Source: a virus
Strand: one strand, 5' to 3'
IMG/VR virus record: IMGVR_UViG_3300045999_005601
Location: 1-35,887 of that record
Length of the DNA: 35,887 nucleotides
Made by a program: the position numbers and the translations under genes. Of the stretch, positions 1 through 35,887 are shown one piece after another; position 1 is the first letter of the stretch, and each line of letters opens with the position of its first letter. The notes under the pieces are model-generated. The model was given only the letters and a program-made list of their open reading frames with translations, did no database searches and had not been told where the DNA came from.

Positions 1-36
1 CCCATCATAACAGAATTTAAAATTGAAAGGATAAAA

Positions 37-540
37 ATGAAATTAATACAGATAGACGAATATATCGAACAAGAGAAACCGTTATCTGGTCCTCTTCACG
101 TTACCAAAGTTCCAGAAACTCTTGAGTACCAACTAAAGGAAAGATTCCTAGACCTATTCGCGCAATGTGGAATTGTTAACACAGTTGCTGAACAGATGGG
201 TCTATCTCCAGGAACTTTCTATTCATGGAGACGTAAAGACAAAGTCTTTGCTGATGAATGGGATAGAATCCGTAGAGAAGAACTACTAGCCATAGTTGAA
301 GATAAAGCCTTCACCAGAGTTATGTCTGATGAGAAGGCTGACCATCTCATGATGTTCCTAATGAAGTCTTGGAAGAGAGAAATCTATGACGATAAGTTTG
401 TCTCTGACAAGAAAGAGAAGAAGTCTTACAACCTTACCATTACAGATGCTAGAGAACAGAAGCAGCTAGAAAGTAATACAATAGATGCAACCGTCGTATC
501 ACTTCAACCCACGAAAACAGAAAATGATGAAGAGGGATGA
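37..540 (+). CDS. Terminase small subunit (putative), HTH protein
   Basis: This is probably the DNA-recognition subunit of the packaging motor, which selects the phage DNA and delivers it to the large subunit. The 167-residue protein has a helix-turn-helix-like stretch at about residues 45-65 (VNTVAEQMGLSPGTFYSWRR), of the kind that recruits DNA in terminase small subunits. A charged helical middle and a low-complexity tail follow. The start has an SD-like GAAAGG seven bases upstream of the ATG. It sits directly before the terminase large subunit and overlaps it, which is the usual order. The family assignment rests on the HTH and the position. A generic phage DNA-binding protein is the alternative. 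It is the first complete gene of the rightward late block. Confidence 0.75.
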   Translation: MKLIQIDEYIEQEKPLSGPLHVTKVPETLEYQLKERFLDLFAQCGIVNTVAEQMGLSPGTFYSWRRKDKVFADEWDRIRREELLAIVEDKAFTRVMSDEKADHLMMFLMKSWKREIYDDKFVSDKKEKKSYNLTITDAREQKQLESNTIDATVVSLQPTKTENDEEG

Positions 541-1825
541 AGAGGAAGATTCCTTTCGTCTAAACTTCTCATGTTTACCTGCTCAAGCAGACTTCGTTAA
601 ATCAACCGAGCCCTTGGTGGCTTTCGTTGGTGGTCTAGGTTCTGGCAAATCTAGAGCAGCCTGTTACAAAGCTATTCAGCTTTGCCTAATGAATGCTCCA
701 TGTCCGGGTATCTTCATTGAACCTTCTTACTCTCTAATCAGAGACGTAGCCTTTCCTACTTTTAGGGAGGTACTAGAGGAACTAGGGTTAGAGTATAAAG
801 TTCATATTTCAAATTTTGAAATTGAGATAGACGGTAAGGCTAAGATTCTTTTCCGTTCAGGTGAAGAACCTGAACGTCTAGTAGGTATTAACGCTGCTTG
901 GGCTATCATTGACGAACCGGGCGTACAGACAGAACTAGTAGCAAAGAATGCTTTGGCCCGGCTAAGGCATCCCAAGGCTAAACAGAGACAACTGTGTTTT
1001 ACTGGTACTCCTGAAGGTTTGAACTGGTTCTATGAATGGTGCCAGAGAAAAGACGTTAAAGTCATCAAGGCTAAGACAACTGATAACCCATTCTTACCTT
1101 CAACCTATGTAGACGATTTGAAAAAGAATTATACAGATGAAGAAGTCAATGCTTACATCAATGGTGAGTTCGTTAGGTTTGAAGGTGGATGGTATAAAGT
1201 TAAACCTAGAGTTATCAAGCCTGTTGAAGATATTAATGGCTTTCAGATTTATCGTCTACCTAGTCAATGTTCAAATCAACTTGTTATTGGTATCGATACA
1301 GGTGGTGGTCTTCTAAAAGATAGTTCTGCTGTAGTCATTGTAGATAAGAGAGATAAGGCTTTAGTCGCTTGTTGGTCGTCTTCTGCTGCTACAATCGACG
1401 AGATTGCAGATAGAGTAGAATATGCGTTTAATAGATTCCAGACTTCATACCACCACAAATTTGAAGCCTTTGGCGGTAAGAAGTCAAACGACGTTCCATT
1501 TGTAGTTATTGAGACTAACGGTATTGGTGAAGCTACTTGGCAGGCTATCAATATTAAAAAGAGAATTCCTGCTGTAAAGCAAAGAACTACTGAGGCTGTT
1601 AGGTACCAAGGTATGTTGTTAACAAAACGTGCAATAGAAGCTGGTATTATTGAAGGTCCACAAGAACTTGCCGATGAAACAGATAAACTAATTGTTGATA
1701 ACGGTAGGTTCAAAGGACCTAAAGATATCTCTATGGCTATAGGCTTCTGTTTAAGAGAGATAGAAAGAAACCCGTATAAAGCACCAGAACAGTCCAGAGA
1801 TTCAACTTTTAGAATGAAAATCTAA
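485..1825 (+). CDS. terL: Terminase large subunit (packaging ATPase/nuclease)
   Basis: This is the motor that pumps phage DNA into the prohead and cuts it. The ATPase half has a Walker A motif GGLGSGKS (residues 49-56), a Walker B with catalytic acids IIDEP (D143, E144) and a CFTGTPEG coupling motif (about 171-178). The C-terminal RNase H-like nuclease half shows its three acidic positions: D271 in VIGIDTGGG, E343 in VVIETNG and D414 in GPKDISMA. The 446-residue length is normal for the family. The start is uncertain. ATG 485 overlaps the upstream gene by 56 bases, ATG 524 would overlap by only 17 bases, and neither has a good SD, so translation is probably coupled to the small subunit. Confidence 0.96.
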   Translation: MQPSYHFNPRKQKMMKRDEEEDSFRLNFSCLPAQADFVKSTEPLVAFVGGLGSGKSRAACYKAIQLCLMNAPCPGIFIEPSYSLIRDVAFPTFREVLEELGLEYKVHISNFEIEIDGKAKILFRSGEEPERLVGINAAWAIIDEPGVQTELVAKNALARLRHPKAKQRQLCFTGTPEGLNWFYEWCQRKDVKVIKAKTTDNPFLPSTYVDDLKKNYTDEEVNAYINGEFVRFEGGWYKVKPRVIKPVEDINGFQIYRLPSQCSNQLVIGIDTGGGLLKDSSAVVIVDKRDKALVACWSSSAATIDEIADRVEYAFNRFQTSYHHKFEAFGGKKSNDVPFVVIETNGIGEATWQAINIKKRIPAVKQRTTEAVRYQGMLLTKRAIEAGIIEGPQELADETDKLIVDNGRFKGPKDISMAIGFCLREIERNPYKAPEQSRDSTFRMKI

Positions 1826-1905
1826 GGGTTGACCCGCTTGACACTCTGGTGGGAAAGTGCCTCCCCATGAACGTTCCCTTCCCCCCGCGCCCACGGCGCT
1901 CTACA
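1826..1905 (+). other. G+C-rich island between terminase and the next gene
   Basis: These 80 bases contain 52 G or C (65%), while the flanking genes are near 40%. The stretch opens with an imperfect palindrome GGGTTGACCC, has a TTGACA hexamer at 1838-1843 without a matching -10, and ends in a pyrimidine run. It covers the doubtful N-terminus of the next gene. It could be a control site, a packaging-related site next to the terminase genes, or imported DNA. Nothing seen here decides between them. Confidence 0.4.
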
Positions 1906-2253
1906 AACCGATACATGGATATGGCTAAAGATGTTAACTTTGAACAATTCCAAGCCAATCCACAACGTGATGCTCAGAATATTAAAAACGCTAATGATTC
2001 TGCTATGTGGGGCGACATTGCTAATATTGGTCTTACTGGTCTAGGTACTGCTGCTGGTGCTGGTATTGGTACATTAGTAGGTGGTCCGGCTGGTACTATG
2101 GTTGGTGCTACATTAGGCAATGCTGCTGGTCAAGCTGTAGGTGGTATGGCTAAGAGTGCTATATCTACACAAGGTCAGAATGCACTAGCTGAAGATGAAC
2201 TAAGAGCTAGAAAAGAACAAGCCTTAATGCAAGCAATTGCGATGATGAGGTGA
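1849..2253 (+). CDS. Glycine-rich small protein, unknown function
   Basis: I do not recognise a characterised family. Residues 60-105 form a Gly/Ala-rich hydrophobic stretch (GLGTAAGAGIGTLVGG and onward) of the kind that can insert in or cross a membrane. Similar segments occur in phage ejection proteins, including the 667-residue protein at the end of this block. The C-terminus is a charged helix. The start is unclear: GTG 1849, ATG 1867, ATG 1915 and ATG 1921 are in frame and none has a convincing SD. The Pro/Arg-rich N-terminus encoded before 1915 lies in a G+C-rich island unlike the rest of the gene, so translation may really begin at 1915 or 1921. It lies between terminase and portal, so a minor virion or packaging role is possible. 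Confidence 0.6.
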   Translation: MGKCLPMNVPFPPRPRRSTNRYMDMAKDVNFEQFQANPQRDAQNIKNANDSAMWGDIANIGLTGLGTAAGAGIGTLVGGPAGTMVGATLGNAAGQAVGGMAKSAISTQGQNALAEDELRARKEQALMQAIAMMR

Positions 2254-2255
2254 TA

Positions 2256-2435
2256 ATGCCAAAGGTTCCAGCTAAAGTAGAGAAAGAGCTAAAGCTTATT
2301 GCTGTAGATAAAGCTATTGATGCTCTTGAAGATGATGACATGGAAGAAGAGACAGAAAAAACTGATAAGAAACTAGAGACTTGTACCTGCCCTGAATGTG
2401 GATATGAAGGCTCTGAATCCCAATTTAAGAAGTAG
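2256..2435 (+). CDS. Small acidic protein with CxCxxC motif
   Basis: Function unknown. The protein has 59 residues. Its N-terminus is a lysine-rich helix, the middle is highly acidic (EDDDMEEETE), and the C-terminus carries CTCPECGYEG, half of a zinc-ribbon-like knuckle with three cysteines. A fourth ligand is not apparent, so metal binding would need dimerisation or another residue. ATG 2256 is preferred over GTG 2250 because GATGAGG at 2244-2250 gives a well-spaced SD. The gene follows the preceding stop closely and ends eight bases before the portal start, so it belongs to the same transcript. Confidence 0.7.
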   Translation: MPKVPAKVEKELKLIAVDKAIDALEDDDMEEETEKTDKKLETCTCPECGYEGSESQFKK

Positions 2436-2443
2436 GATATGAA

Positions 2444-4285
2444 ATGGAAACCGACATCAAAATTGAAGTTCCTAATTCTACGTCAGGGGAAATTGAAGAG
2501 ATTTCTATTAAAGCGTTTTTTGAAGATACAGAAAAGGAATGGGTAGAGCGGTCTTCAGCTTTTCTATGTCGGGCAGAGTTTAATGAGAAGATGATTGCTG
2601 GTGACCAGTTTCTTGATATCATCAATGAACAGATTGTTGATGATGCGTTCTGGTCTGAATCATCTAAATCTTCTCGTAACTTCCTAGCTAACCTATGCCT
2701 TACTTGGGCTTCAAGAGTTCTAGAAGAAAGACCTTCTATTCACTGTTATCCTAATGAACCAGGCATTGATGTAAAGAAAGCTGAAGCTGCTAACAAGCTT
2801 CTTGAATATGCAAAGCAGAATCAAGATTTTGACGATTTGTGTTTTGAAGCTGCAATGCTTGTTCAGCCTCACAGTGCCGTTGCATTCAAAACAGTATGGG
2901 ACCCATTGTCAGGGCCTTTAGGTAAAGGTGTTCAAGCTTTCTCACCAGAAGGTTTACCATTGTTCAATCCAGACGGTAGTCCGGTTATCGTAGGGAAGAA
3001 CAAACCTTTAGGTGATATTAGCTGGTCAGTCATAAGCATCTTTGATTACTACACAGATGGTTCTGAAGACATAGAAGATTCTGAGTATGTATGTTTTAAA
3101 GATATTATCTCTGTAAATGCTGCTAGAAAATTTCTAGATATGTATCAGAAAGAGAATCAGAATCTTTCTGCTGAAGAGTACACTAACCAATGGGGTGTTA
3201 AAGCTAATGGTGTAATGCTTAAGGAAATGTGGATTAGACCGGGTCACTATCAGTTTCCAGATGGTCTATTCTCAGTAATGGTAGGTGATGTTGTTCTGTT
3301 TGCTACTGCATTTCCTTACGACCACGGTGAACTTCCACTAGCTGTGTGGAAAGTTGGTAAGCGTAGAAATTCTGAGTACGGTACTTCTCACGTTGACAAT
3401 GCTGTCTATATTCAGAAGGTAATCAACCACAACGTAGCTGCTATCGACACTCAGGCTAAGATGGCTAAGGATGTAAAGCTTCTAGGTCATACTTCTATTA
3501 TTGATAAGATGCAGGATGGTGTTCAGCATATTCCATGTGATGACCCTCAACTAGCGCAAGCTACAAGATGGCTTGAACCGCCAGACAGAGCCAAAGTCCT
3601 AGTCAGTTCTTTGGCGGACAATGAACGTGCTTTGTTTGCTGTCTTTGGTCTTAACGAACTATTAAGCGGTGCTGATTCAATGAAGTCAGGTACTGCTGCT
3701 AAGTCTATTGCTTATCTAAATAAGCTAGATTCAATGAAGATGGCAGGTGCTAGTCGTTCTTTGAACAAGGCTATTCTTAGAGTTATGAGACAGACTCTTA
3801 AGCTTTACCAACAATTCGTACAGGCTCCTAGAATTGCTCAAATCCTAGGTAAAGGTAATCTGTACGAACCTCTAGAGTTTATTGGTGCTGATATCGCTGG
3901 TGTTGATGTCAAGCTAGAACCTATCTCTGGTTTCTCTCAGTATAGAGCTAATATTGCTGAAGAGGCTCAGATGGGTATGCAGCAGACAGGGCCTACTCCT
4001 GAAGGTATGTCACAGATGCAAACTGGTCTTAGACAGACTTCTTATGATAAGTCACAACGTGATATTGTATCTGCTCAGATTGATGCTGTCATTAAGGGTA
4101 TGCCTCAAGAAGCTGATAACACTCTAGACCCGATGATTGCTGTAGATGAAATCCTAGGTGTTATTACACAATACTATGGTACACCAATTGGTCAAAATCT
4201 TATGACTCTACTACAGAGTTATAGAACAGCAGCACAGCAGCAACAACAGCAGATGATGCAAGCACAGAACGGAGTTCCACAGTGA
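2444..4285 (+). CDS. Portal protein
   Basis: This is the dodecameric head vertex through which DNA enters and leaves, and the docking site for terminase and the tail adaptor. The identification rests on its position two genes after the terminase large subunit, its length (613 residues), and a portal-like layout. That layout is an N-terminal helical region with WSESSKSSRNFLANLC and RVLEERPSI, a central alpha/beta body, and a long helical C-terminus ending in Gln/Met-rich low complexity (QQQQQQMMQAQ), as in many podovirus portals with barrel extensions. An SD-like TAGGAT lies shortly before the ATG. The stop overlaps the next start by four bases. No diagnostic short motif exists for portals, so the call is mainly by size, context and overall resemblance. 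Confidence 0.88.
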   Translation: METDIKIEVPNSTSGEIEEISIKAFFEDTEKEWVERSSAFLCRAEFNEKMIAGDQFLDIINEQIVDDAFWSESSKSSRNFLANLCLTWASRVLEERPSIHCYPNEPGIDVKKAEAANKLLEYAKQNQDFDDLCFEAAMLVQPHSAVAFKTVWDPLSGPLGKGVQAFSPEGLPLFNPDGSPVIVGKNKPLGDISWSVISIFDYYTDGSEDIEDSEYVCFKDIISVNAARKFLDMYQKENQNLSAEEYTNQWGVKANGVMLKEMWIRPGHYQFPDGLFSVMVGDVVLFATAFPYDHGELPLAVWKVGKRRNSEYGTSHVDNAVYIQKVINHNVAAIDTQAKMAKDVKLLGHTSIIDKMQDGVQHIPCDDPQLAQATRWLEPPDRAKVLVSSLADNERALFAVFGLNELLSGADSMKSGTAAKSIAYLNKLDSMKMAGASRSLNKAILRVMRQTLKLYQQFVQAPRIAQILGKGNLYEPLEFIGADIAGVDVKLEPISGFSQYRANIAEEAQMGMQQTGPTPEGMSQMQTGLRQTSYDKSQRDIVSAQIDAVIKGMPQEADNTLDPMIAVDEILGVITQYYGTPIGQNLMTLLQSYRTAAQQQQQQMMQAQNGVPQ

Positions 4286-4641
4286 AAAATAAAATTCTAC
4301 TAGTAATAGCTATTATTGTAGCAATGGCGATTCCTGCACTAGCAGACCCGGTTCTAGGTTCTTTTAAGGTATATCAAGTAACTTGTAATGGTACTGCTGC
4401 CAAGATGGGTCCATCTAACTATTCAAAGCAAATTGTCTCATTTAGATGGTGGGTTAATAGCGCGACACCTGTATTTGTAGGTGGTAGCGATGTTAATACA
4501 ACTGACAAAGGTTTTCCATATTGCACTGACACAGCTAGCTGTGCCCTAGCTACAGATACAGCAGATGGTCCACCTTCTGAACTATGGTGTAGGACAGCCG
4601 GGTCTTCAGTAATAGTTACAATCTTTGGCGGTCCACGATGA
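4282..4641 (+). CDS. Exported Cys-containing beta-sandwich protein
   Basis: The first 21 residues are a typical Sec signal peptide: positive MKNK, a hydrophobic core, and an ALA-D cleavage site after residue 21. The mature part is about 98 residues and has four cysteines (C35, C81, C87, C103) suited to disulfides in the periplasm. It also shows the pattern R-x-V-N-x-ATPVFVGGSDV followed by G-F-P, which resembles small beta-sandwich modules seen in phage decoration and fibre proteins. A signal peptide on a protein encoded between portal and capsid genes is unusual. It may act outside the cytoplasm, for example in exclusion, at the cell surface, or as a late-added virion part. Translation starts at a GTG with an upstream GGAG and overlaps the portal stop. 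Confidence 0.7.
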   Translation: MKNKILLVIAIIVAMAIPALADPVLGSFKVYQVTCNGTAAKMGPSNYSKQIVSFRWWVNSATPVFVGGSDVNTTDKGFPYCTDTASCALATDTADGPPSELWCRTAGSSVIVTIFGGPR

Positions 4642-5420
4642 AATGGTTACTATCGCTACTACTTGTTACAGGTATAGGTAGCGATACCATATCTGAAAAT
4701 TTTGGAACTATAGGAAAAAGAAATATTCAATCACAATCAGAGGTTATACCTCCTGAACCACCACAAGCTAAATATCAATTTGATTCACAATCTGTAGGAT
4801 TGATTACAACAGCAGGTAGTGATGTTTCTGCTTGGTTTAATGCAGGAACAGTAGCAATGAGTATGGACCAAGCTACTCTATCTAACAGACCTTTGTCTAT
4901 AGTCAGTGGTTCTGATTCAGGAATATGGTTTGATGGTACAAATGATTCTCTAAGTAGAATAAATATGACCAGAAGTGATAACTGGCATATATTTTTAGTT
5001 GCTACTGTTGATTTAGTTGATACAGATTTTTCATGTGGTAACAATGATTTCATATTTGGGGATATAAACTACCATAGTATTCAACTAAGAACATCAGCAG
5101 GTATTATTTATGCTGTTGCATTTAACAATGATGGTACTAACGACTGCGCTGAAGTAGCAATAACTCTAAACATAGATGGAAGAGTTTTAATTGATGCTAA
5201 AAATACAGGTACAGAAGTTAGTATAGCTTTTAATGGAGGAGCATTTACATCAACTGCTAGTGGTAATACTACTAACTTACCTGTAACTATGGGTATGGGA
5301 GGTGTATCAGCTAGATTCTTTGATGGTGCAATTCATGAAGTATATGAATATGATAATGATTTAGATAGTGTTGATAGACAGATTGTATTAGACTACTTAC
5401 AATGGAAATGGAATATCTAA
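4638..5420 (+). CDS. LamG/concanavalin A-like beta-jelly-roll protein
   Basis: This is a probable carbohydrate- or surface-binding protein. Residues 1-15 (MKWLLSLLLVTGIGS) are hydrophobic and may be an export signal. After a Pro-rich linker (residues 38-45) the body shows features of laminin-G/concanavalin A-like folds in phage fibres: SGIWFDGTNDSLS, HIFLVATVD, VSIAFNGGAF, and the C-terminal FFDGAIHEVYEYDNDL with VLDYLQWKWNI. It overlaps the previous signal-peptide gene by four bases, so the pair is probably translated together. Codons are more A+T-rich here (many AAT, ATA and GAT) than in the capsid gene, which fits a recently exchanged appendage gene. The exact ligand cannot be inferred. 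Confidence 0.75.
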   Translation: MKWLLSLLLVTGIGSDTISENFGTIGKRNIQSQSEVIPPEPPQAKYQFDSQSVGLITTAGSDVSAWFNAGTVAMSMDQATLSNRPLSIVSGSDSGIWFDGTNDSLSRINMTRSDNWHIFLVATVDLVDTDFSCGNNDFIFGDINYHSIQLRTSAGIIYAVAFNNDGTNDCAEVAITLNIDGRVLIDAKNTGTEVSIAFNGGAFTSTASGNTTNLPVTMGMGGVSARFFDGAIHEVYEYDNDLDSVDRQIVLDYLQWKWNI

Positions 5421-5421
5421 A

Positions 5422-5784
5422 ATGGAACTAGATAAAGTTGGTCTAAGTGTAGTGTCAGCAGTTCTACCTGCTGGCGTTAGTGTAGGTGAAATCCCAGTGC
5501 CAGAGGGTATTCCTGTATGGATGGCGGCACTAATTGTTGCTCTAGGACCTTCAAGCGTAGCTTTCCTATCTTGGGCTGGTAAGGCTGTTGTTCAAATTGC
5601 AGCGGCTTACTTTAAAAAGAAGTCTGAGTATAAGAAGGCTAAGGCTGAAGCTATGCTAAAGGATTCAAACAAGTCAAATGATTTAGAAGCTATTAAACTA
5701 AAACTAGAAGCTGAAGCTGAATACGCTGCTGCGCATAAGGCTGAAGAAATCGCTTCTAAGATGTCTGCTAAGAAAGGTGAATGA
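5422..5784 (+). CDS. Candidate holin, single-pass membrane protein
   Basis: Holins make holes in the inner membrane that release or time the endolysin. The 120-residue protein has a mildly hydrophobic N-terminus (residues 6-19), a clear membrane segment at about 31-62, and then a lysine- and alanine-rich coiled-coil tail (residues 64-120). This shape, and the CHAP endolysin two genes downstream, make it the best holin candidate in the window. The long charged tail is larger than in most holins, so another membrane-anchored phage protein remains possible. It begins one base after the preceding stop and overlaps the next start region. Confidence 0.55.
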   Translation: MELDKVGLSVVSAVLPAGVSVGEIPVPEGIPVWMAALIVALGPSSVAFLSWAGKAVVQIAAAYFKKKSEYKKAKAEAMLKDSNKSNDLEAIKLKLEAEAEYAAAHKAEEIASKMSAKKGE

Positions 5785-5786
5785 AC

Positions 5787-6311
5787 ATGGATATCAGAGC
5801 TAACGACGATGGTCAAGTAGTAGCCCCTGCTGGCGTTCACAATGCTGCACCTGCTTGTGGTGAACTAGTTTATGGTGGCGGTACTGCATTTACTTCAGCG
5901 TCAAACCCTGCCGCTGAAGTTATTGATGGTACAGGTGTTACTGCTGGTGGTCTATCACTAGGTGTTACTGAGAATGCTACAAATGGTACTCTAACAATTA
6001 CACGAACTGGTGATTATGATGTTGAACTAAATCTAGCTGATTTTTCTAGTGGTACTGCTTCTGGTAACGTTCAGTTTGACGTTCAAAAGAACGGTGCTGC
6101 TTTTTCCGGTACTTCTCGTATGCAGGTTATTCGTGTTGCTGCTACTGCTAAGGCTGGTGTTATTGTTAAGAAGCGTCAACGTCTAAAGAAGGGTGATGTT
6201 CTACGGACAGTTGTAACTTCTGCTGCTGGCGCTGTTCAAACTGTAACTGAAGGTGTCCTACGGGTTACACAAGTTAAGGATATTTCAAGCAAGGTAATTG
6301 TAGAGGAGTGA
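5787..6311 (+). CDS. C1q/TNF-like beta-sandwich virion protein (putative)
   Basis: The 174-residue protein has a beta-strand pattern like C1q/TNF-type jelly rolls used in phage head fibres and decoration proteins. The marks are GTLTITRTGDYDVELNL, VQFDVQKNGAAF, a basic KKRQRLKKGDVLR loop (about residues 132-144) and the closing VTEGVLRVTQV strand. A host-surface or capsid-decoration role is inferred, not shown. ATG 5787 is chosen because AAAGGTGA ends nine bases upstream. An in-frame ATG at 5781 overlaps the previous stop and is the alternative. It lies between the holin candidate and the endolysin, in the accessory cassette that separates portal from scaffold. Confidence 0.65.
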   Translation: MDIRANDDGQVVAPAGVHNAAPACGELVYGGGTAFTSASNPAAEVIDGTGVTAGGLSLGVTENATNGTLTITRTGDYDVELNLADFSSGTASGNVQFDVQKNGAAFSGTSRMQVIRVAATAKAGVIVKKRQRLKKGDVLRTVVTSAAGAVQTVTEGVLRVTQVKDISSKVIVEE

Positions 6312-6314
6312 TAA

Positions 6315-6773
6315 ATGTACGAAGGTGAACTAATCAATTTAGCTAGGTCACAAATTGGTCTTAAGGAATCATCCGGTAACAATGATGGGCCTGAAATTGA
6401 GAAGTTCACCGGAGGCAGAAAAGAACCTTGGTGTGCCCATTTTGTAGCTTGGCTTTTCAGAGAAATTGGAAAGCCTTTACCTACAGATATAAAACCATCA
6501 ATAAGCCAGCATAATCCATTGGCTTCTGTATCACATATGAAGAAAGTGTTTGATAAGAATAAATGGACGGTTGCAGGACCGGTTGTTGGCGGGGTAGTTT
6601 TCTTCACGACTAGGGGGCAGTCAGACTCCGGACCGGGTAGACATGTAGGTGTCATAGAGTCTGTAGAGTCTGACTGTTTCTTTACGATTGAAGGTAATTG
6701 GGGAAATTCTGTTAAAAGAGTAAAAAGAAAGAAATCAGATAAGACCATCTGGTCTTATGGAAAGGTTCCATAA
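6315..6773 (+). CDS. Endolysin, CHAP domain peptidoglycan hydrolase
   Basis: This enzyme cuts cell-wall peptides (amidase or endopeptidase) to release progeny. The 152 residues are essentially one CHAP (NlpC/P60-type) domain. The nucleophile is C40 in EPWCAHFVAW, the histidine is H110 in PGRHVGVIE, and the third polar position is E126 or N128 in IEGNWGNS. There is no signal peptide and no separate wall-binding domain, so it should need a holin to reach its substrate. The membrane protein encoded at 5422 is the obvious partner. Its place between portal and scaffold is unusual, since many phages keep lysis genes at the end of the late block. Confidence 0.9.
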   Translation: MYEGELINLARSQIGLKESSGNNDGPEIEKFTGGRKEPWCAHFVAWLFREIGKPLPTDIKPSISQHNPLASVSHMKKVFDKNKWTVAGPVVGGVVFFTTRGQSDSGPGRHVGVIESVESDCFFTIEGNWGNSVKRVKRKKSDKTIWSYGKVP

Positions 6774-6774
6774 A

Positions 6775-7467
6775 ATGCTACTAACACCAGGTTATATTGA
6801 AGGTGCATTACATGATGTCGTTTTTGAACTACCAATCGCCGCTGATGCTGACTACATTAGTTCAGCTTCAGATGGAGGTTCACCGGGTAACTTCTCGCTG
6901 ACCTCTGCTGAAGGCGGTGATGAAGTCTTTAGGTCCGCTCAAGGTAAACGTCCTTTTCCGGGCTATGGTAGACTTCCACAAGCTACTAAAACCGATGCTT
7001 CAGGTTCAGACCTACAAGTAACTATTACTATTGAAGGTTTCCGTCTAGGTAAGTTTGTTACTCAAGATATTGCTCTTACTGCTGCCGGTACTGAAACAGT
7101 AAAAGGTACTAAGCTTTTAGATGAAGTTAAACGTGTATTCATTAAATCAATTTCAAATCCTGCTGCCAGTGATACACTAGCTGTAGGTCTTGACGATTCT
7201 TGGCTAGGTCTACCGTTTGATATTTCACATAAGTCAGCTATCCGCTCAATTCTAAAGATTGCTGCTGGTACTCCTGACGCTAACGGTCCTAAGATTCAAA
7301 CTGACATAACTGATGCTATGGTCAAGCTTGAAGCTTACGGTTCTGGTATTGATGTTAAGACTCTCTATTCGTCAACAGCTATCGCTGTTACAGATAGATA
7401 CTTTATGAAGGTTATTAACAATGGCTCTACTCGCGTAATGAGTAGAGTAGGTACACTTCTAGGCTGA
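6775..7467 (+). CDS. Probable minor structural protein, unknown family
   Basis: I do not recognise the family. The 230-residue protein is soluble, has no signal or membrane segments, and looks beta-rich with alternating strands (VTITIEGFRLGKFV, SDTLAVGLDDSWLGL, DRYFMKVINNGSTRV). It lies immediately before the scaffold and capsid genes, so a head-associated role such as decoration is the most economical guess. ATG 6775 is preferred because AAAGG ends nine bases before it. An in-frame ATG at 6757 would overlap the endolysin by 17 bases. Codon use matches the neighbouring capsid gene, with many GGT, GCT and CTA codons, which suggests a highly expressed late protein. Confidence 0.6.
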   Translation: MLLTPGYIEGALHDVVFELPIAADADYISSASDGGSPGNFSLTSAEGGDEVFRSAQGKRPFPGYGRLPQATKTDASGSDLQVTITIEGFRLGKFVTQDIALTAAGTETVKGTKLLDEVKRVFIKSISNPAASDTLAVGLDDSWLGLPFDISHKSAIRSILKIAAGTPDANGPKIQTDITDAMVKLEAYGSGIDVKTLYSSTAIAVTDRYFMKVINNGSTRVMSRVGTLLG

Positions 7468-7479
7468 GAGAATAACTAA

Positions 7480-8349
7480 ATGGGTAACGTTAATCCTACT
7501 GAGACACAGGCTACCACAACATCTACTCCTGAGCCTACAACCAGAGAGAAGATGCTTGCTGACCTTGAAACTGACATTCAGTCAGAAGAAAAGGAAGCTA
7601 GCGGTACTGAAACGGAAGCTAAGGAACCTGAAAATAAGGAAGCTTCTGACGACGATTCAACACCTGACGATGATTCATCTTCTGACGAAGATGATGAAAA
7701 GGAAGGTGAAAAGGAAGGTGAAAAGCCTGCCAAGAAGAATCGTTATCAAAAGATGCGAGCAAAGCTTCAAGCATCTGAAGAACTAGTAAAGAAGTATTCT
7801 AGTGAACGGGATGAAGCAGTTAAGTATGCTAATATTTATAGACAACGTCTTCTTGCTCTACAAGAGCGTTATAAGTCTATTACAGAAGCTAACAAGATTG
7901 AACTTAATCCTGTTGAAGAAGAAAACTTCAAGCTTAAGCTGAACAATAAAGAGCAGGAACTAACAAAGAAGCTAGAAGAGGAGCAAATTAAAGAACGGCA
8001 AAAAGAAGAACTAATTGCCATTCAACGTCAACAGACGCATGAATTTGCTCAAGAAGCTATTAACATATCTTCTAAGTTTGTTACTGATAAGTCTCAGCTA
8101 AAGCAATACGCTGCTGAACTGCTTAAGGCTCATGCTGTCGCTCTAAGAGCGGACCCTGACGCTGAAATGTCAGATACCGCTAAAATTTTCTTTGCTATGC
8201 AAAAGAAAAATAATCCAGAAGCTGTTCAACATCAGGTAAATAACGTTCCTCGGCCACTGGTAACTAAACCAACTGGTACTAAACCAACATTCAAAAGTAC
8301 AAGAGATGAAGCTCTAGCGTTCCTAGATGCTGAACTTAAGGGAGAATAA
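7480..8349 (+). CDS. Scaffolding protein (putative)
   Basis: Scaffolds shape the prohead and leave before or during packaging. The 289-residue protein has the expected composition. It opens with a disordered, strongly acidic N-terminus (residues 30-80, with DDDSTPDDDSSSDEDDEKEG and EKEG repeats). A long charged coiled coil follows (about 85-200), then a short C-terminal helical region (FKSTRDEALAFLDAELK) that could bind the capsid shell. It lies immediately upstream of the major capsid gene, the classic position. A near-perfect tandem repeat of GAAAAGGAAGGT encodes the EKEG repeats near 7697-7725. A minor tail-assembly factor is a less likely alternative. Confidence 0.82.
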   Translation: MGNVNPTETQATTTSTPEPTTREKMLADLETDIQSEEKEASGTETEAKEPENKEASDDDSTPDDDSSSDEDDEKEGEKEGEKPAKKNRYQKMRAKLQASEELVKKYSSERDEAVKYANIYRQRLLALQERYKSITEANKIELNPVEEENFKLKLNNKEQELTKKLEEEQIKERQKEELIAIQRQQTHEFAQEAINISSKFVTDKSQLKQYAAELLKAHAVALRADPDAEMSDTAKIFFAMQKKNNPEAVQHQVNNVPRPLVTKPTGTKPTFKSTRDEALAFLDAELKGE

Positions 8350-8353
8350 GTAA

Positions 8354-9571
8354 ATGTCTTCAACAATTCCTGTTACTGCAATCGGGGCTCTGCTTGGTCG
8401 TTACACCAACAGTGTTGTTAACGAACAAGCTGAAGAGAATGCCCCTCTTCTAAAGAACAAGATTATCGAAAAACTAAATAAGAAAGATAAACTAGGTGTT
8501 GTCAACGTTAAGGCTGGCGAACTTGCTTCAATCAAGTTTCTAGCTGACGGTGGTACTCTACCTCAAGGTGCTGATATTCTACCTCAACAGGGTACATATT
8601 TCCCAGTAGCTCTATTTGGTCGTGTTAAGATTCCACGTCTTGCCGCCAATACTGCTACTTCAAAGGAAGATGCCGTTGACATTGTAATGGAGCAGCTAGA
8701 CACCACTGGTAAGACAATGGGTCGTCAGCTAAACCGTTCAGTGTATGGTCACCAAATTGGTTCTCCAGCTTCTACTGTAGCTGCTGCTTCAACCACCTTT
8801 GAAGTTGCTGATTCGTCTGCTTGGCGGGTAGGTATGTCTTTTGAAGTTTGGAACGGTTCTTCAGCTATTGAAGGTACTTCAGAAGCTACTCTATGTAAGG
8901 TTTCAAAGGTTGCTCGCCCTGTTGATGGTGTCGGTAACACCACTATCACCTTCACTACTGCTGGTGGTGCTGGTAACCTTGTTCAATGGGAGACTACCTA
9001 CACCTTCCATATTAGAGGTTCAAAGGCTTCTGGCGCTACTATGGTTAGCCTTGCTGATGCTTACTCTGGTTCAGCTTCTCTATACGGTATTTCTGCTGAC
9101 AGCTTTGAATGGTCTGGTAACAGCGATTCAAGCGGTAAGGCACTAACTGTTGGTAACCTACGGTCATGGCTAACTGAGATTATTCGTCGTCGTGGTGAGG
9201 AGCCTACCGCTATTCTTGCTAACCGTAAGAATATCGAGCGTTACGGAAACCAGATGATTAACCAACGTCGCTTTATGAACGGTACTATGGATGCTGTTGG
9301 TAAGCAGGTTCCAGAGTTTGAAGGTCTACCCTTCCAACGTGATGAGAACCTAAAGGATAGCGAGCTATTCATGTTCAACCGGAATGATATTAAGCTACAT
9401 GTATTCCGGGATATTGCTCCTGACTTCGATGGTAATGCTAAGAAGTCAATGGGTCGCGAAGCTATGCTTATCTCCGACAGTGAATTTGTATATGACCTAC
9501 AAGTTTGGGGCGCTTACAACCTCCGGGTAGAGCGTCGCAACGGTGGTGGTCTATACAACATCACAGGCTGA
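8354..9571 (+). CDS. Major capsid protein (HK97-like fold)
   Basis: This forms the icosahedral head shell. The evidence is its place after the scaffold gene, its 405-residue length and a strong SD (AAGGGAG) before the ATG. Its composition is typical of phage shell proteins: an N-terminal helical arm (NEQAEENAPLLKNKIIEKL), a P-domain-like segment (DIVMEQLDTTGKTMGRQL), and a C-terminal region with GREAMLISDSEFVYDLQVWG. The inserted Ser/Thr/Gly-rich stretch at about residues 138-235 could be a surface domain. Codon choice is strongly biased to GGT, GCT, AAC and CGT, and CGT for Arg is used more than in the neighbours. That fits very high expression. The gene is followed at once by a strong terminator. 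Confidence 0.93.
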   Translation: MSSTIPVTAIGALLGRYTNSVVNEQAEENAPLLKNKIIEKLNKKDKLGVVNVKAGELASIKFLADGGTLPQGADILPQQGTYFPVALFGRVKIPRLAANTATSKEDAVDIVMEQLDTTGKTMGRQLNRSVYGHQIGSPASTVAAASTTFEVADSSAWRVGMSFEVWNGSSAIEGTSEATLCKVSKVARPVDGVGNTTITFTTAGGAGNLVQWETTYTFHIRGSKASGATMVSLADAYSGSASLYGISADSFEWSGNSDSSGKALTVGNLRSWLTEIIRRRGEEPTAILANRKNIERYGNQMINQRRFMNGTMDAVGKQVPEFEGLPFQRDENLKDSELFMFNRNDIKLHVFRDIAPDFDGNAKKSMGREAMLISDSEFVYDLQVWGAYNLRVERRNGGGLYNITG

Positions 9572-9579
9572 TAATTCTT

Positions 9580-9616
9580 AAAAGCCGGGTAGGGGTAAAA
9601 CCTTACCCGGCTTTTT
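9580..9616 (+). terminator. Rho-independent terminator after the capsid gene
   Basis: AAAAGCCGGGT-AGG pairs with CCTTACCCGGCTTTTT across a short loop. The stem is G+C-rich with one bulged A and is followed by a T run. It begins nine bases after the capsid stop, so it would limit readthrough from the capsid operon into the tail genes. Confidence 0.92.
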
Positions 9617-9634
9617 CTCTAACTAGGAGTTAAA

Positions 9635-10009
9635 ATGGAAGTCATCTGTAATGAAACTAAGCGCGAAGTAATTGAAAAGCTAGGTAAGGAATGGGATATT
9701 GTACCTATGGACGGTGTTCTAGGGAATGTTTTAGCTGCTGAAGTAATTCCTACAAAACTACCAGTAATAGACGGTATTTTTATTATTGAGAATATTTCAT
9801 GGGATATTGCTGAAGTATCTGAAGATTATCCATTCTCATCAATTCTTAGAAGTAGAATTGATAGAGAACGTCGCAAGGTAGCTCTTTCTAATGAAATCTA
9901 CCATGCTGAAATGGAAAAGCTTCAAAAAGATAAGAAAGAAGACCTAAGAAAAGATATGCTTGACTTCTATCAATTTGCTTCAGGTGCTAAGAAAATCTAT
10001 GGAGTTTGA
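9635..10009 (+). CDS. Hypothetical protein before the head-tail adaptor
   Basis: I do not recognise the family. The 124-residue protein has a small mixed alpha/beta N-terminal half (residues 1-70, with VIDGIFIIENISWDI) and a basic, highly charged helical C-terminus (about 72-115). A clear SD (AGGAG) lies six bases before the ATG. It is the first gene after the capsid terminator and is followed closely by the adaptor-like gene, so a connector or assembly role is possible but not shown. Confidence 0.6.
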   Translation: MEVICNETKREVIEKLGKEWDIVPMDGVLGNVLAAEVIPTKLPVIDGIFIIENISWDIAEVSEDYPFSSILRSRIDRERRKVALSNEIYHAEMEKLQKDKKEDLRKDMLDFYQFASGAKKIYGV

Positions 10010-10011
10010 TA

Positions 10012-10656
10012 ATGAACGTTACAGAAGCTATATCTGTTGTAAGACAGCATCTAGATGCTGAAGATGATACCGATAGATGGACTGATGCACAAGTTAAATC
10101 TTCATTAGGTTATGCTTTAAACAAAATTCAAGAAGACTATGTTAAGTCAGGAGGGAGAAGGCTAGATGAAATCGTTTCGGTTACGACCGATTCATCTGGC
10201 AGGTACGATATTTCTGCAAGTAATCCTATCTCTATTAAAGGTATATCTATTTTACAAGGGATGAGAAGGTGGCCACTGACACCGTCTCAGTATGAGGAAA
10301 TGAGATATCCTCATCAACAGATATCAGAGATAGAGATTAGATTTGTACCAAAGTTACACTTACCAAGCAACAACTCTAACCCTTTGGTGGGGGATGGTAG
10401 CACGGCTAAGAACACTTGGGAAAGCTTTGAACAACTTATTTGCGTAACTGCTGCGATGTATTGCGCTATAAAAGATGATGAACTTAGACAGACTCTACAA
10501 GAGTTAGAAATGAAGTTAAGAGATACTGTAATGAAAGAGGAAAGAATTCCGTCTTCATACAGACCTCCTGCTAAGGCTATGTGGTTATCTGCTCTTGTAG
10601 GTTATGTCTGGATTCCAGAGTCAAAAGAAATACAACTAATTAGACGGGACTACTAA
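10012..10656 (+). CDS. Head-tail adaptor protein (podovirus gp4/gp11 type)
   Basis: This is probably the ring that binds under the portal and carries the nozzle. The N-terminus (AISVVRQHLDAEDDTDRWTD, then helix VKSSLGYALNKIQEDY) matches the pattern of podovirus adaptor proteins, which open with a short helix and an RWTD-like motif. It is followed by beta-rich segments and a helical C-terminal part. The 214-residue length is typical. ATG 10012 is chosen because GGAG at 10001-10004 gives a proper SD. A TTG at 10006 is less likely. The stop shares a base with the next ATG. The family assignment is from pattern and position. Confidence 0.75.
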   Translation: MNVTEAISVVRQHLDAEDDTDRWTDAQVKSSLGYALNKIQEDYVKSGGRRLDEIVSVTTDSSGRYDISASNPISIKGISILQGMRRWPLTPSQYEEMRYPHQQISEIEIRFVPKLHLPSNNSNPLVGDGSTAKNTWESFEQLICVTAAMYCAIKDDELRQTLQELEMKLRDTVMKEERIPSSYRPPAKAMWLSALVGYVWIPESKEIQLIRRDY

Positions 10657-12632: not shown

Positions 12633-12633
12633 A

Positions 12634-23285: not shown

Positions 23286-23485
23286 TATACCCTCCATCCC
23301 CAATTTTCAGTTATAAAGTCTTCTAAAAGAATTTCATCTGAACAAGAGCATTTACCTCTATGATTTGAGGTAGAACTAGTGTTATGAACTTCTCTCATTT
23401 GTTTAATAGCTTCTTCTTCAGAAACTTCTTCTACTCTGTTTTTATCAGGCTCATCTTCATCGTAAACGTCATATTGAATTGGCAT
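23285..23485 (-). CDS. Small acidic hypothetical protein
   Basis: Function unknown. The 66 residues are strongly acidic at the N-terminus (VYDEDEPDKNRVEEVSEEEA). A CSCS motif lies in the middle, and the C-terminus ends ENWGWRV. It overlaps DNA polymerase at its start and the MazG gene at its stop, so it is part of the same translationally coupled set. A weak SD-like GAAGAAG precedes the ATG. No motif supports a function. Confidence 0.58.
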   Translation of the reverse strand: MPIQYDVYDEDEPDKNRVEEVSEEEAIKQMREVHNTSSTSNHRGKCSCSDEILLEDFITENWGWRV

Positions 23486-25175: not shown

Positions 25176-25182
25176 TTTTACC

Positions 25183-25628: not shown

Positions 25629-26405
25629 TCATTGACCTTTCTTTAGGAACGGACGAATCTTGTCGTAAATAGTAGCTAGATTAGGCTTGCCTTTTTCTAG
25701 TGTAATAATCTCGCCGATAGCTTCAGCGATATCTTCTCTACGGGTCTTAGCTCTAATCTTAGAGCGAGGACGGGTTAGAGCCTTAATAACACCCTTATCT
25801 TCGTACAGGTACCATGAGAAGTCAAGGTAAGAAATAAGGGTTTCAGCGACCTTGTCAGATAGGGCAGGTAGTACCTCAATGATATTACCTTCCTTATCCT
25901 TATTTGTCTTACTGATAGCTGTAAGAATTACGTTCTTCTTGCAACCTCTTAGTAGAGACATTAGCCGCTTTTCACGGTTTGTATCCTTACCATAATGCTT
26001 CTGCTCTAGCATATCCTTATCTTTGGCTCTATCGTCATTGATAAGGATGTCTTGCAGAGATTTAGTCTGGAAGTCAGACCATGAATCAATTACAATTGTG
26101 TTTACCTCTTTCCAGTGTGGTAGAGGATTAGGTGCTAGAACTTCATCTAGAAGTTCCTCAAGATGCCTTGCAATATCAGGTACCTTGTTACCCTTACTAT
26201 CTCTACCAATATCAACTACCATAATATTGTCATTGCTAGGTAGTGATAGTAGACCGTCTTCAATATTTACAATAAGCATCTTACCTAGGTCTGGATGCTC
26301 TGCACCAGAAGCAGCAAGTGTAGTCTTACCTATACCCGGTGGGCTCCAAAACAAAGCCTTGAACCATCGTTCTGTGCTATCTAGTTTATACGGTACAAAT
26401 GCCAT
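25629..26405 (-). CDS. Sak4-like RecA-fold ATPase (recombination)
   Basis: This is a probable phage recombinase that pairs or anneals single-stranded DNA together with SSB. The 258-residue protein has the P-loop SPPGIGKTTL (residues 21-30) and Walker B VNTIVIDSWSDF (D107), with a RecA-like core in between. The region RLMSLLRGCKKNVILTAISK fits the following strand, with a sensor-like polar end. The short length and the P-loop just after a WxALFW strand match Sak4-type proteins. Its downstream neighbour is SSB-like and its upstream neighbour is Cas4-like, a common recombination set. A Rad52-like or generic AAA ATPase is less likely. Confidence 0.8.
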   Translation of the reverse strand: MAFVPYKLDSTERWFKALFWSPPGIGKTTLAASGAEHPDLGKMLIVNIEDGLLSLPSNDNIMVVDIGRDSKGNKVPDIARHLEELLDEVLAPNPLPHWKEVNTIVIDSWSDFQTKSLQDILINDDRAKDKDMLEQKHYGKDTNREKRLMSLLRGCKKNVILTAISKTNKDKEGNIIEVLPALSDKVAETLISYLDFSWYLYEDKGVIKALTRPRSKIRAKTRREDIAEAIGEIITLEKGKPNLATIYDKIRPFLKKGQ

Positions 26406-27412
26406 TACTCTTCTGTCCCTTCGATGAATTGAACTTCTACAAAGCTAGCTTCACTCTTACGCTTATAGTTAGTCTTTAGTAGAAACTCAGTATCACCATC
26501 TTTAAGTGATTCTGTGCAGTATTCAAACATTGAGCAATTCTTGCAGTTGCTCCAATTCATACATCGTACAGATTCTTCACCTGATTCCTTAGCCAGAAGA
26601 ATACTCTTAGCAGCAGGAAGAATAATACGATTCCAGCAGTTTGAAATCTCGTCAGTAGTTCTTGAAACTTTTGTTTCATCGATGTCAAACCATACATGTT
26701 TGTTTAACTTATCTTTCATTTCCAGATAATCATCTGGATTTTGACCACAAGACTCTACAAACTTTGCGTAAGTCTCCCAGTCTGTCATGATATCTTTGGT
26801 GGATACCTTGCCAGACTTAATGATTTCAGGTTCTTTTGGTAGAAGAGGTTTAATCTGAAGCTGCCTAGAACCTTGTGTATGAATACCTCTAGAGTTTAGA
26901 ACTAGACCTTGGTAGAAAGCCATCTGAAGATTTACCATTTCAGACTTGAATGGTCTGAATGTCTTACGGAACTTATGGTCAATTACCCAAATACCAGTGT
27001 TATCTTCAGCTACCCAGTCTGGTGTACCTTGGAATAATATATCATCTACTACCATCTGTAGAGTCTCTTCTACTAGATGATTCTTATATCGAAACTTATC
27101 CCTAACTCTAGGCCAGATTCGATTGGCTACAGCTAATGCTTCATAGCCAATAGCAATTACGTCTTTAGTCTCTGACCCGATTACATCATTCTCAAAATGC
27201 TTCTTAATCTCAGCCTTAACCGAGGCTTCAGCATCTTCTGATGAACCGCCAAGAATCAGAGTCTTCATTGCGGCGTGGCCTAGAGTACCAAAAGCAATCT
27301 CTTTGGCGGTACGTCTTGGTACAATCTCTTCAATGTAGTTTAACTGGTGAAGATAGTTACACCGTAACCAAGTAGAAATCTCAGAGAAGTGAATAGGTTC
27401 TGTATTACGCAT
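26405..27412 (-). CDS. Cas4/RecB-like nuclease with Fe-S cluster motif
   Basis: This is a probable DNA exonuclease making single-stranded ends for the adjacent Sak4-like recombinase. The 335-residue protein has a PD-(D/E)XK core: H46 in FGTLGHAAMK, D132 in FQGTPDWVAED, D145 and K147 in IWVIDHKFRK, and the Q-x3-Y motif (Q163, Y167). The cysteines of a Cas4/AddB-type iron-sulfur cluster are visible: one near the N-terminus (C18 in STWLRCNYLH), and C290, C293 and C299 near the C-terminus (NCKNCSMFEYC). C284 is an additional cysteine. GGAG lies just before the ATG. No CRISPR array was seen in the window. Confidence 0.85.
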   Translation of the reverse strand: MRNTEPIHFSEISTWLRCNYLHQLNYIEEIVPRRTAKEIAFGTLGHAAMKTLILGGSSEDAEASVKAEIKKHFENDVIGSETKDVIAIGYEALAVANRIWPRVRDKFRYKNHLVEETLQMVVDDILFQGTPDWVAEDNTGIWVIDHKFRKTFRPFKSEMVNLQMAFYQGLVLNSRGIHTQGSRQLQIKPLLPKEPEIIKSGKVSTKDIMTDWETYAKFVESCGQNPDDYLEMKDKLNKHVWFDIDETKVSRTTDEISNCWNRIILPAAKSILLAKESGEESVRCMNWSNCKNCSMFEYCTESLKDGDTEFLLKTNYKRKSEASFVEVQFIEGTEE

Positions 27413-27413
27413 A

Positions 27414-29582
27414 CTACTCCATTGGAATTATTTCTTCAAGTTTGATTGTTGAAAGAGCCTTGTAAGCTACTCTCTTAGTCTGGTTAATCTCTACTTCATA
27501 CTTCTCAAGTACGCCGATATCATACAAATCTCTTAGATACTGTGTGCATGTTTGGATACCTCTACCAGTAATCATTGCTAACTGGTCTGGACACACACCA
27601 ATATCTGACTTGTATATAATCTTGAAGATTTCAAACTTAGACCAAGGCTTAGTTACATCATGCCTCTTCGGATTATCCTTAAGAAGTTCAACCTGCCATT
27701 CCTTAATAGGACTACCACCTTCAACAAAAGGAATCTTAGTGATTCTGTAATCTAACAACTCAGTATCAGGTGCAATGACTAGGTCTTGCAACCATCGCTG
27801 AATCCTTAGATTCTTCTGTGTCTCTGGATGGAACGTTCTATTAAGAATCTTCTTGAATGGATTCTTAGGTAGACTCTTTACTTGTTTTGGTTCTGGAACA
27901 TCAATATCACTCTCTGTAAGGATAATTGATTTAGGTGGACGACCCGGACCGCGTTTCGGTTTGTCGTCATTCTTTCTACTGACTTTATCTTCTGACTCTT
28001 CTTTGTCGGTAGAATCAACCAGACCTTCAGACACTTCATATGTCCATGTCTCCTTATCATCAATGTTGAATGATAGTGGAATAGCAGCTATATTATCTGA
28101 AGACTTGAAGTGTCTCCTGATTTTAATTGACTTGTCACCTTTAGGTTCAATCTGCCAGCCAGTCTCTAGGAACGCATTTAGGAATTGGCTACCCCATGCT
28201 CGTGTACGGTCTTGTGCTTGACCTTTATTAGTATGGTGGGCAATTACGAAACTAACACCATACTTATCGCGAAAGTCTTTGAAGATGAACATATCTTCAA
28301 CAAGCTTTGCCATGAAGTCTTCAGTACCGCCAAGAGAGTAAAGCGGGTCTAGGATAATTAGCCTAGGCTTTAGCTTCTTGATGGCTTCTTCAAGGTCGCG
28401 AATAGAATCTTTGTCTTCTAGATTAAGACGTCTATCAGGGTGAATGTATAACGGAATCTTTTCTGGTACTGAAATACATACATCGCCGTTATCATCTACT
28501 TTAGGTAGTTCTTCATCTTGATACTTTGAACGTCTTACAAGAGTAATACGTTGTGCTGTTTGACCAGCGTAATCCTCTTGCTGAACTAGGAAGACAGGCC
28601 CTTTCTTTTCTGGATTAACAGAATACATTCCTAGAAATGGCTTACCTGTAGCAACAGACAAAGCTAGGTCAATCAAGGTCCACGTCTTGTAGCTACCCGG
28701 AGGAGACACTACCATTGCAATAGTGTTATCAGGTAGCCAATCTTTGATAATCCAATCAACAGGCTTGTCTCCCCATTGGTACATGAAATCATCAAGACCC
28801 ATGAGAGAGAAATCCTTTCCACCAAAACCTGCCTCTGTAGCATTTCTGGTGGTCTTATTGTTAGCTTGTTTTCTATTTGTAGTCTTGTAGACTGACTTGA
28901 TTGTAGTTTCTAACTCTGTCAGAGGAAGACGTTCTTCGTTCTTCTGATTCCAGTTCTTCAGTAGCTGGATAGTAATGTCTTGTGGTAGTTCTTTGCTGGC
29001 AAAAAACCCTGCCAACTTGGACAGGGTTTGATTTCTTTCGCCAGATTTTGCACCATACTCAAGAGTATTACTTACCCAGTCTTCAGGGTTAGTACGTTCA
29101 TGTTCTACTGTACCTGATTCTGAATATAGAATCTTAGGACATTCAGCCGGTTCACCTAGTTCAAGCCATTCATAACTACCCTTTGGTGTGACTGATGGTG
29201 CAGCATGGCAGAATCCACCATCACCTCTAACGTCAACTCCTGGGAATAAACCTACTCTATTTGATACAGGCTTACCCGGATGCTTGAAGTAGATATGACA
29301 ACCGCCTGACGGTGTCATTGCTACCATACCAGATGGGAATCTCTGCATCATTTCAGAGACTGAACCACCGTGCTTAGGGTCAACGTCAATAGCAACCAAC
29401 CCTGAGATAGCACCAGTAATAATCGCTACGTTGACGTCTTTGCTGAACCATTCCTTTACGAAGTCTACGCTTTGTCTTTCAGACTGATACTTAGTCCATG
29501 CTGTAGCAGGAGTTTTAGTATCCTTACGAATCGGAATCACATTCCATCCGTAATCATTGTAGGCTAAGACTTCTTTTAGCAT
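27414..29582 (-). CDS. Primase-polymerase with RepA-like helicase domain
   Basis: This probably primes and unwinds replication. Residues 1-150 are a PF09250-type bifunctional DNA primase/polymerase domain: GWNVIPIRKDTKTPATAW, D66 and D68 in VAIDVDPKHGG, H96 in SGGCHIYFKH, D117 in VDVRGDGGF. A helical linker leads to a RecA/RepA-like ATPase with Walker A SPPGSYKTWTL (293-303), Walker B RLIILDPLYSL (D412) and HHTNKG (449-454). An AT-hook-like KPKRGPGRPPK (541-551) follows, and then a C-terminal winged helix (GVCPDQLAMITGRGIQTCTQ). The 722 residues therefore combine priming, ATPase and DNA-binding parts. GAGG gives the SD. Confidence 0.9.
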   Translation of the reverse strand: MLKEVLAYNDYGWNVIPIRKDTKTPATAWTKYQSERQSVDFVKEWFSKDVNVAIITGAISGLVAIDVDPKHGGSVSEMMQRFPSGMVAMTPSGGCHIYFKHPGKPVSNRVGLFPGVDVRGDGGFCHAAPSVTPKGSYEWLELGEPAECPKILYSESGTVEHERTNPEDWVSNTLEYGAKSGERNQTLSKLAGFFASKELPQDITIQLLKNWNQKNEERLPLTELETTIKSVYKTTNRKQANNKTTRNATEAGFGGKDFSLMGLDDFMYQWGDKPVDWIIKDWLPDNTIAMVVSPPGSYKTWTLIDLALSVATGKPFLGMYSVNPEKKGPVFLVQQEDYAGQTAQRITLVRRSKYQDEELPKVDDNGDVCISVPEKIPLYIHPDRRLNLEDKDSIRDLEEAIKKLKPRLIILDPLYSLGGTEDFMAKLVEDMFIFKDFRDKYGVSFVIAHHTNKGQAQDRTRAWGSQFLNAFLETGWQIEPKGDKSIKIRRHFKSSDNIAAIPLSFNIDDKETWTYEVSEGLVDSTDKEESEDKVSRKNDDKPKRGPGRPPKSIILTESDIDVPEPKQVKSLPKNPFKKILNRTFHPETQKNLRIQRWLQDLVIAPDTELLDYRITKIPFVEGGSPIKEWQVELLKDNPKRHDVTKPWSKFEIFKIIYKSDIGVCPDQLAMITGRGIQTCTQYLRDLYDIGVLEKYEVEINQTKRVAYKALSTIKLEEIIPME

Positions 29583-29600: not shown

Positions 29601-29677
29601 TGGCGCGCGGTACTGGATTTGAACCAGTGACCCCCTGCTTAGAAGGCAGATGCTCTATCCGACTGAGCTAACCGCGC
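29601..29677 (-). tRNA. tRNA-Arg (anticodon UCU)
   Basis: On the minus strand the acceptor GCGCGGU pairs with ACCGCGC, followed by G and an encoded CCA. The anticodon stem and loop CUGC-CUUCUAA-GCAG gives the anticodon UCU, which reads AGA and AGG. The T-arm CUGG-UUCAAAU-CCAG is normal. AGA is the favoured arginine codon in most window genes, so the tRNA probably helps late translation. A small inverted repeat GGGAG/CTCCC lies just upstream at about 29680-29702. Confidence 0.97.
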
Positions 29678-32882: not shown

Positions 32883-32885
32883 TTA

Positions 32886-35590: not shown

Positions 35591-35591
35591 G

Positions 35592-35786
35592 TTAGACCCT
35601 CTTAGGTTCAGAGAAAGAGTCAGTGTCAGGGTTGAAGTCAATGACACCTGTGATGTAGTGAATCGCAATGACCGGACTAGTGGTCACAGTCTGAAAGATA
35701 TTCCTTTCATCAAATAGCAGGTAATCGTTTTGGTTTTCTTCGTGCTTGTACGCACGTCCAGTGAGACTGTGTCGTGTCATTGACAT
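35592..35786 (-). CDS. Small hypothetical protein upstream of ParB-like gene
   Basis: Function unknown. The 64-residue protein has a basic start (SMTRHSLTGRAYKHEENQND) and strand segments (YLLFDERNIFQTVTTSPVI, then AIHYITGVIDFNPD). ATG 35786 overlaps the preceding stop as TAATG, with AAAGGG about ten bases upstream; ATG 35780 is the alternative. It is followed after one base by the ParB-like gene. Confidence 0.58.
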   Translation of the reverse strand: MSMTRHSLTGRAYKHEENQNDYLLFDERNIFQTVTTSPVIAIHYITGVIDFNPDTDSFSEPKRV

Positions 35787-35884
35787 TAGAGACTAACCCT
35801 TTCTTGAATGAGGCGGGAGTAATCCTGATTAATCTTGGCTTGCATAGCCCTTACAGCCTTGATGATATCGGCATCATCGGCCAT
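35786..35884 (-). CDS. Short helical protein at the window edge
   Basis: The frame from ATG 35884 gives a 32-residue helical peptide (MADDADIIKAVRAMQAKINQ, then DYSRLIQERVSL) that ends in a TAATG overlap with the next gene. The SD region lies outside the window. The start could also be further right, so the gene may be cut by the window end. Confidence 0.45.
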   Translation of the reverse strand: MADDADIIKAVRAMQAKINQDYSRLIQERVSL

Positions 35885-35887
35885 CCT

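Follow-up and report, generated by a model that had tools for sequence, protein, structure and literature searches.

Absence of GATC from a podovirus-like phage contig and its probable origin in host restriction

The window, that is the whole stretch of 35,887 bases analyzed here, is a linear IMG/VR virus record without any N, and its sequence does not contain a single GATC. This absence is real and was confirmed in every detail that we checked. Most of the sites were lost through synonymous codon swaps, and the most probable explanation is that a virulent podovirus-like phage shed all of its GATC sites under restriction by hosts that cut at this word. Elimination of recognition sites is already well described: it is complete or nearly complete in about a tenth of viral genomes, mostly at orthodox Type II sites and in non-temperate phages (PMC6286503). 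The case presented here is total and lineage-specific, a strong example of a phenomenon already known.

A podovirus-like contig

The contig, which may be incomplete, is that of a podovirus-like phage. No terminal repeat was found in it, and a comparison of its first 24 kb with 50,697 phage records gave no long DNA match. The features used below are as follows.

1..35887, both strands: GATC-free stretch, the whole contig
37..14627, plus strand: packaging/virion module (tblastn of window proteins; gene order shared with the sister contigs L174 and L175)
485..1825, plus strand: terminase large subunit, TerL (PHROG 2, 7.6e-36), the basis of the TerL tree
2444..4285, plus strand: portal protein (PHROG 156, 6.2e-21)
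8354..9571, plus strand: major capsid protein, MCP (PHROG 14242, 1.3e-5; 61% identical to that of L172)
20731..21183, minus strand: phage nuclease, Holliday-junction-resolvase-like (PHROG 244, 4.3e-12)
23469..25202, minus strand: family A DNA polymerase (PF00476, 2.4e-66)
26405..27412, minus strand: PD-(D/E)XK exonuclease of the replication cluster (PF12705, 1e-14; PHROG 1218, 3.2e-20)
27414..29582, minus strand: primase-polymerase/helicase fusion (PF09250, PF13481, PF08708)
29601..29677, minus strand: tRNA-Arg(TCT) (ARAGORN)
32807-32882, minus strand: tRNA-Ile(TAT) (ARAGORN), free of GATC
33049-33124, minus strand: tRNA-Asp(GTC) (ARAGORN), free of GATC

These three are all the tRNAs that ARAGORN finds in the window. 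An internal-virion-like protein and an endolysin are also encoded on the plus strand, and an AAA protein, a SNF2 helicase, ThyX, MazG and a dATP/dGTP diphosphohydrolase on the minus strand. The last of these (21614-22048, minus strand) belongs to an N-terminal family, PF18909, and adjoins ThyX and MazG; this family is reminiscent of MazZ of 2-aminoadenine phages, although no PurZ was noticed. A small protein at 19921-20259 (minus strand) has no Pfam or PHROG match; by eye, its N-terminal sequence (GNRVLVRTV...SAGGVYI) resembles GroES.

The Phage_integrase profile for tyrosine integrases has no match in this possibly incomplete contig, and terminase, portal and capsid genes are present, as in a non-temperate dsDNA phage. 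Profiles for DpnII (PF04556) and MutH/Sau3AI (PF02976) have no match in the contig either, nor has that for Dam-type methylases (PF02086), by which the phage could have protected GATC sites of its own.

GATC is missing as a word

Base composition predicts 130.5 GATCs in the window and a maximal-order Markov model 131.6, against a count of zero (z -14.7). This z-score is the lowest among all 256 tetranucleotides, and GATC is the only one of them significantly depleted below 0.15 of its expectation. It also falls within the published definition of site elimination, which asks for an observed/expected ratio under 0.1 and an expectation of over 15 sites (PMC6286503). The first-pass annotation, made by reading the letters, had claimed that GATC is absent from 35.9 kb, that about 130 copies would be expected and that other palindromes are present. 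The counts bear out all of this, including the comparison with a Markov expectation that it had proposed; CTAG occurs 253 times, AGCT 245, GTAC 139 and CCGG 51 times.

The codons tell the same story. When codons are shuffled synonymously, with every protein and its codon counts left intact (500 runs over 52 predicted CDS, 35,304 nt), GATC appears on average 98.1 times (sd 6.6) and never fewer than 81 times, where the real genes have none. The shuffled mean divides into 55.6, 19.2 and 23.3 among the three codon registers, and the real count is zero in each. Together with the Markov result this identifies the depleted unit as the word itself rather than its parts or the codons. For aspartate followed by a C, GAC is used 69 times and GAT not once, exactly as the first-pass annotation had stated; GAT prevails over GAC before A (199/53), G (206/68) and T (98/37). 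No comparable shift before C is seen for Asn, His, Tyr, Cys or Phe. For isoleucine after a G, ATC is never used and other Ile codons are found 133 times, and the register xGA|TC likewise has no occurrence.

Sister phages keep their sites

Single-protein scans of IMG/VR found no close relatives. A degenerate TerL motif pattern led to L172, whose capsid and terminase alignments in turn led to L174, L176 and L177. The nearest relatives overall share 46-51% of TerL and 49-61% of MCP residues with the window, in the same gene order; L172/L175 are 51% identical to it in TerL and 61% in the capsid, and the capsid of L174 is 49% identical. The order of genes in the packaging/virion module is conserved in L174 and L175, while L176 and L177 span part of it. 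The G+C content of these sisters lies between 43 and 62%, a hint that their hosts may differ.

All of them carry GATC, with 59 of 70.7 expected copies in L175, 53 of 92.9 in L174, 27 of 38.8 in L176 and 16 of 28.8 in L177. At aligned codons there are 41 sister GATCs in L175, 30 in L174 and 20 in L176, and none of these is kept in the window. The amino-acid pair is unchanged at nine, six and three of the lost sites, respectively, with changed codons, as where GATCCT of a sister corresponds to GACCCA in the window, or AAGATC to AAGATT. Taken alone, this non-retention is weak evidence because many synonymous positions have turned over at around 50% identity: of the control words, AGCT is kept at 14 of 64 aligned sister sites and TCGA at 0 of 33. 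The argument is carried by the zero count in the window. As a separate observation, L174 (1-16508) lacks AATT (0 of 19.6 expected), an avoided word different from that of the window.

On a larger scale, we collected 239 contigs by TerL, polymerase or primase similarity, each with at least 10 expected sites; since they are fragments, the fractions are not population estimates. GATC is absent from 17 of them and below one tenth of expectation in 20, which makes it the palindrome most often eliminated, followed by CATG (absent in 10, below one tenth in 11). About half of the GATC avoiders also avoid CATG, CCGG, GGCC, CTAG, CGCG or ACGT. When avoidance (observed/expected below 0.2) is mapped onto a TerL tree of 153 rows, built with FastTree and unsure in its details owing to long branches, at least 12 changes are required, nine of them forced by well-supported branches. 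The window is the sole avoider in its group of six rows.

A few individual contigs have conspicuous profiles of their own. The distant TerL relatives L025 and L191 lack GATC, CATG, CCGG and GGCC, and L025 is also nearly without CTAG and CGCG, so that many palindromes have gone together. Manatee Spring phage (L171, MW202867.1), whose record annotates an adenine methyltransferase, has two GGACC/GGTCC where 81.7 are expected and is devoid of several hexamers, among them GACGGC, AAGCTT and GCCGGC. We also asked whether relatives that bear GATC rely on Dam-type methylases instead; no pattern emerged, with PF02086 matched in two of 50 records, one of them above cut-off (L012, itself GATC-poor).

Other words are missing too

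GATC is not the only word affected. Applying the same Markov test to 1802 hexamers, we found five to be absent: CAGGTC (17.6 expected), CAAGGA (13.8), GGTCTC (GAGACC; 13.3), CAGCTG (11.2) and GAACCC (10.7). GAAGGA has a single copy where 15.3 are expected. In 60 synonymously shuffled versions of the window, not a single hexamer was missing in this way. Among sites of the REBASE type, low counts are seen for WGTACW (2 of 24.9 expected), YACGTR (0 of 10.3), CAGCTG (0 of 10.9), CTGCAG (0 of 8.4), SAGCTS (0 of 15.9) and CCWGG (13 of 51.0). The first-pass annotation was right in naming GATC avoidance; the missing hexamers and the near-absence of WGTACW had escaped it. YTCGAR/TTCGAA, which seemed to be missing when judged by codon shuffles, was set aside, as TCGA is generally rare (Markov expectation 1.3).

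By the same test no eliminated hexamers were found in L174, L175 and L176, which as shorter contigs offer less power. Each lineage seems to have its own set of avoided words. The EcoRII/Dcm word CCWGG is also low in L175 (2 of 16.8 expected; counted as CCAGG/CCTGG, 2 of 17.6) and is not low in L174 or L176.

Restriction escape and its alternatives

How, then, did the sites disappear? Two answers are already refuted. Mutational or codon bias acting without selection on GATC could appeal to the other compositional biases of the window, such as a CpG-context and a TATA depletion, but GAT and ATC are each common, the codon-preserving shuffles never approach zero, GAC replaces GAT solely before C, and sister phages retain their sites. 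An artefact of library preparation or assembly, such as a GATC-cutting enzyme used in sampling, might come to mind for a contig from an assembled metagenome-type record; fragment selection, however, cannot produce some 98 synonymous choices across 52 genes, and sister contigs of the same collection carry GATC. The first-pass annotation had proposed selection against a GATC-cutting or GATC-sensing system of the hosts. Selection on this lineage is established because sisters keep the sites, the losses are synonymous and avoidance recurs independently; as to the agent, such a host system is our best explanation.

Restriction escape would work in a simple way. The hosts would carry, widely enough, a restriction system cutting at GATC, either of the DpnII/Sau3AI/MboI type, which acts on unmethylated sites, or of the DpnI type, which acts on methylated ones; the phage sequence cannot tell these apart. 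Phages with fewer sites would survive entry better, so that site-destroying mutations, mostly synonymous ones (GATC to GACC, xGATT and so on), would become fixed. Once no site is left, that system would no longer cut and a phage methylase would be unneeded. Several hexanucleotide sites may have been removed likewise, through other enzymes. We infer the host enzyme and its cutting as the agent behind what is directly observed, namely total absence, synonymous replacement, lineage specificity, a multi-site pattern and no detected phage methylase.

Precedents are at hand. The survey by Rusinov et al. (2018, PMC6286503) of site elimination by non-temperate dsDNA phages counts GATC among the sites often avoided, and all 46 of its phages with a host that has the corresponding Type IIM enzymes are short of this word. 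The window, a virulent-type dsDNA phage with no integrase detected, resembles these cases and differs from them in that its cognate enzyme is inferred and in its missing non-palindromic hexamers, which are rare in that survey. The lytic staphylococcal podovirus phiAGO1.3 is another GATC-poor example, with two GATC and no GGNCC in 17.6 kb, read as escape from Sau3A/Sau96I (PMC6346686). Its host is known and its host range was tested (PMC6346686), and its likeness to the window is one of description, with no sequence relationship seen.

Two observations speak against restriction escape. Four of the five absent hexamers (CAGGTC, GGTCTC, CAAGGA, GAACCC) are non-palindromic, CAGCTG being the palindromic one, and avoidance of Type I/IIG sites is unreported and that of Type III sites rare (PMC6286503). 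Moreover, DpnII and DpnI families are uncommon, at about 1-3% of the genomes sampled in two classes, neither shown as that of the host.

An alternative that we regard as unlikely is counter-selection by Dam methylation and its readers, through MutH nicking of unmethylated phage GATC in mismatch repair or through SeqA/Dam effects on phage replication. It would fit the elimination of no tetranucleotide other than GATC, and it has a parallel in phiX174 and the GATC-poor enterobacteriophages, which also lack GATC despite many expected sites (about 20 in the 5.4 kb of phiX174; PMC5014478), compared with 131 in 36 kb for the window. For these phages the explanation has centred on mismatch repair, and MutH-dependent counterselection was proposed in work cited there (Deschavanne and Radman 1991, McClelland 1984, as cited in PMC5014478). 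Yet 20 GATCs added to phiX174 had no clear short-term growth cost (PMC5014478). In the window, GATC is not affected alone: six hexamers are missing or nearly so, and neither CAGCTG, CAGGTC, GGTCTC, CAAGGA and GAACCC nor the near-absent WGTACW is recognised by Dam or MutH. Many related avoiders, too, co-avoid other restriction palindromes. Cutting is thus better supported than sensing by Dam, SeqA or MutH because other hexamers, including a palindrome, are missing, and both pressures could have acted together.

Very unlikely, in our view, is a GATC-specific nuclease of the phage itself, degrading host or competitor DNA while its own genome is kept site-free. The window does encode two nucleases of the PD-(D/E)XK or resolvase type, and several small ORFs are without assignment, but both nucleases match ordinary replication and recombination families. 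We set aside each of them as a GATC cutter, the one at 20731..21183 as Holliday-junction-resolvase-like without a DpnII or MutH match, and the one at 26405..27412 as a member of a replication-cluster family.

The search for a host

A strict pattern of the tRNA-Arg gave no match, and a loose one mostly matched Flavobacteriia, then Clostridia and others, several phyla with no clear best. The best full-length identity, to Moraxella (66 of 77 bases), is not decisive. Relatives of the capsid protein were found neither in 369 genomes of the class of the Moraxella match nor in 289 genomes of the class of an alphaproteobacterial match. Sampled genomes with a DpnII-family gene number 3-4 of 274 and 9 of 295, and those with a DpnI-family gene 3-4 of 274, in classes not tied to the phage. 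Enzymes that cut GATC exist in such groups and are not linked to the phage of the window. A cyanobacterial host, considered from the mix of avoided sites, was dropped when a literature search gave nothing specific.

The genes themselves add an observation on translation. AGGA/TCCT is found 233 times inside genes compared with 323 under synonymous shuffle, AAGGA/TCCTT 60 times compared with 113, and an SD-like motif precedes 29 of 52 genes. This avoidance of Shine-Dalgarno-like words within genes, along with the upstream motifs, suggests an SD-using host.

What the missing words may record

It is conceivable, though rather unlikely, that the lineage faced an unusually broad restriction repertoire, including the non-palindromic six-base sites CAGGTC, GGTCTC, CAAGGA and GAACCC, of which GATC is merely the most visible target. 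If true, its hosts would possess systems, for example Type III, IIS-like or other word-reading defences, with sites that phages are thought rarely to shed.

The loss of GATC itself is a very clean case: 131 sites expected, none left, and sister phages that kept theirs. Uncultured phage genomes therefore hold a readable record of host restriction systems. A comparison of all the words that a phage lacks with host methylomes could serve to assign hosts to orphan phages.
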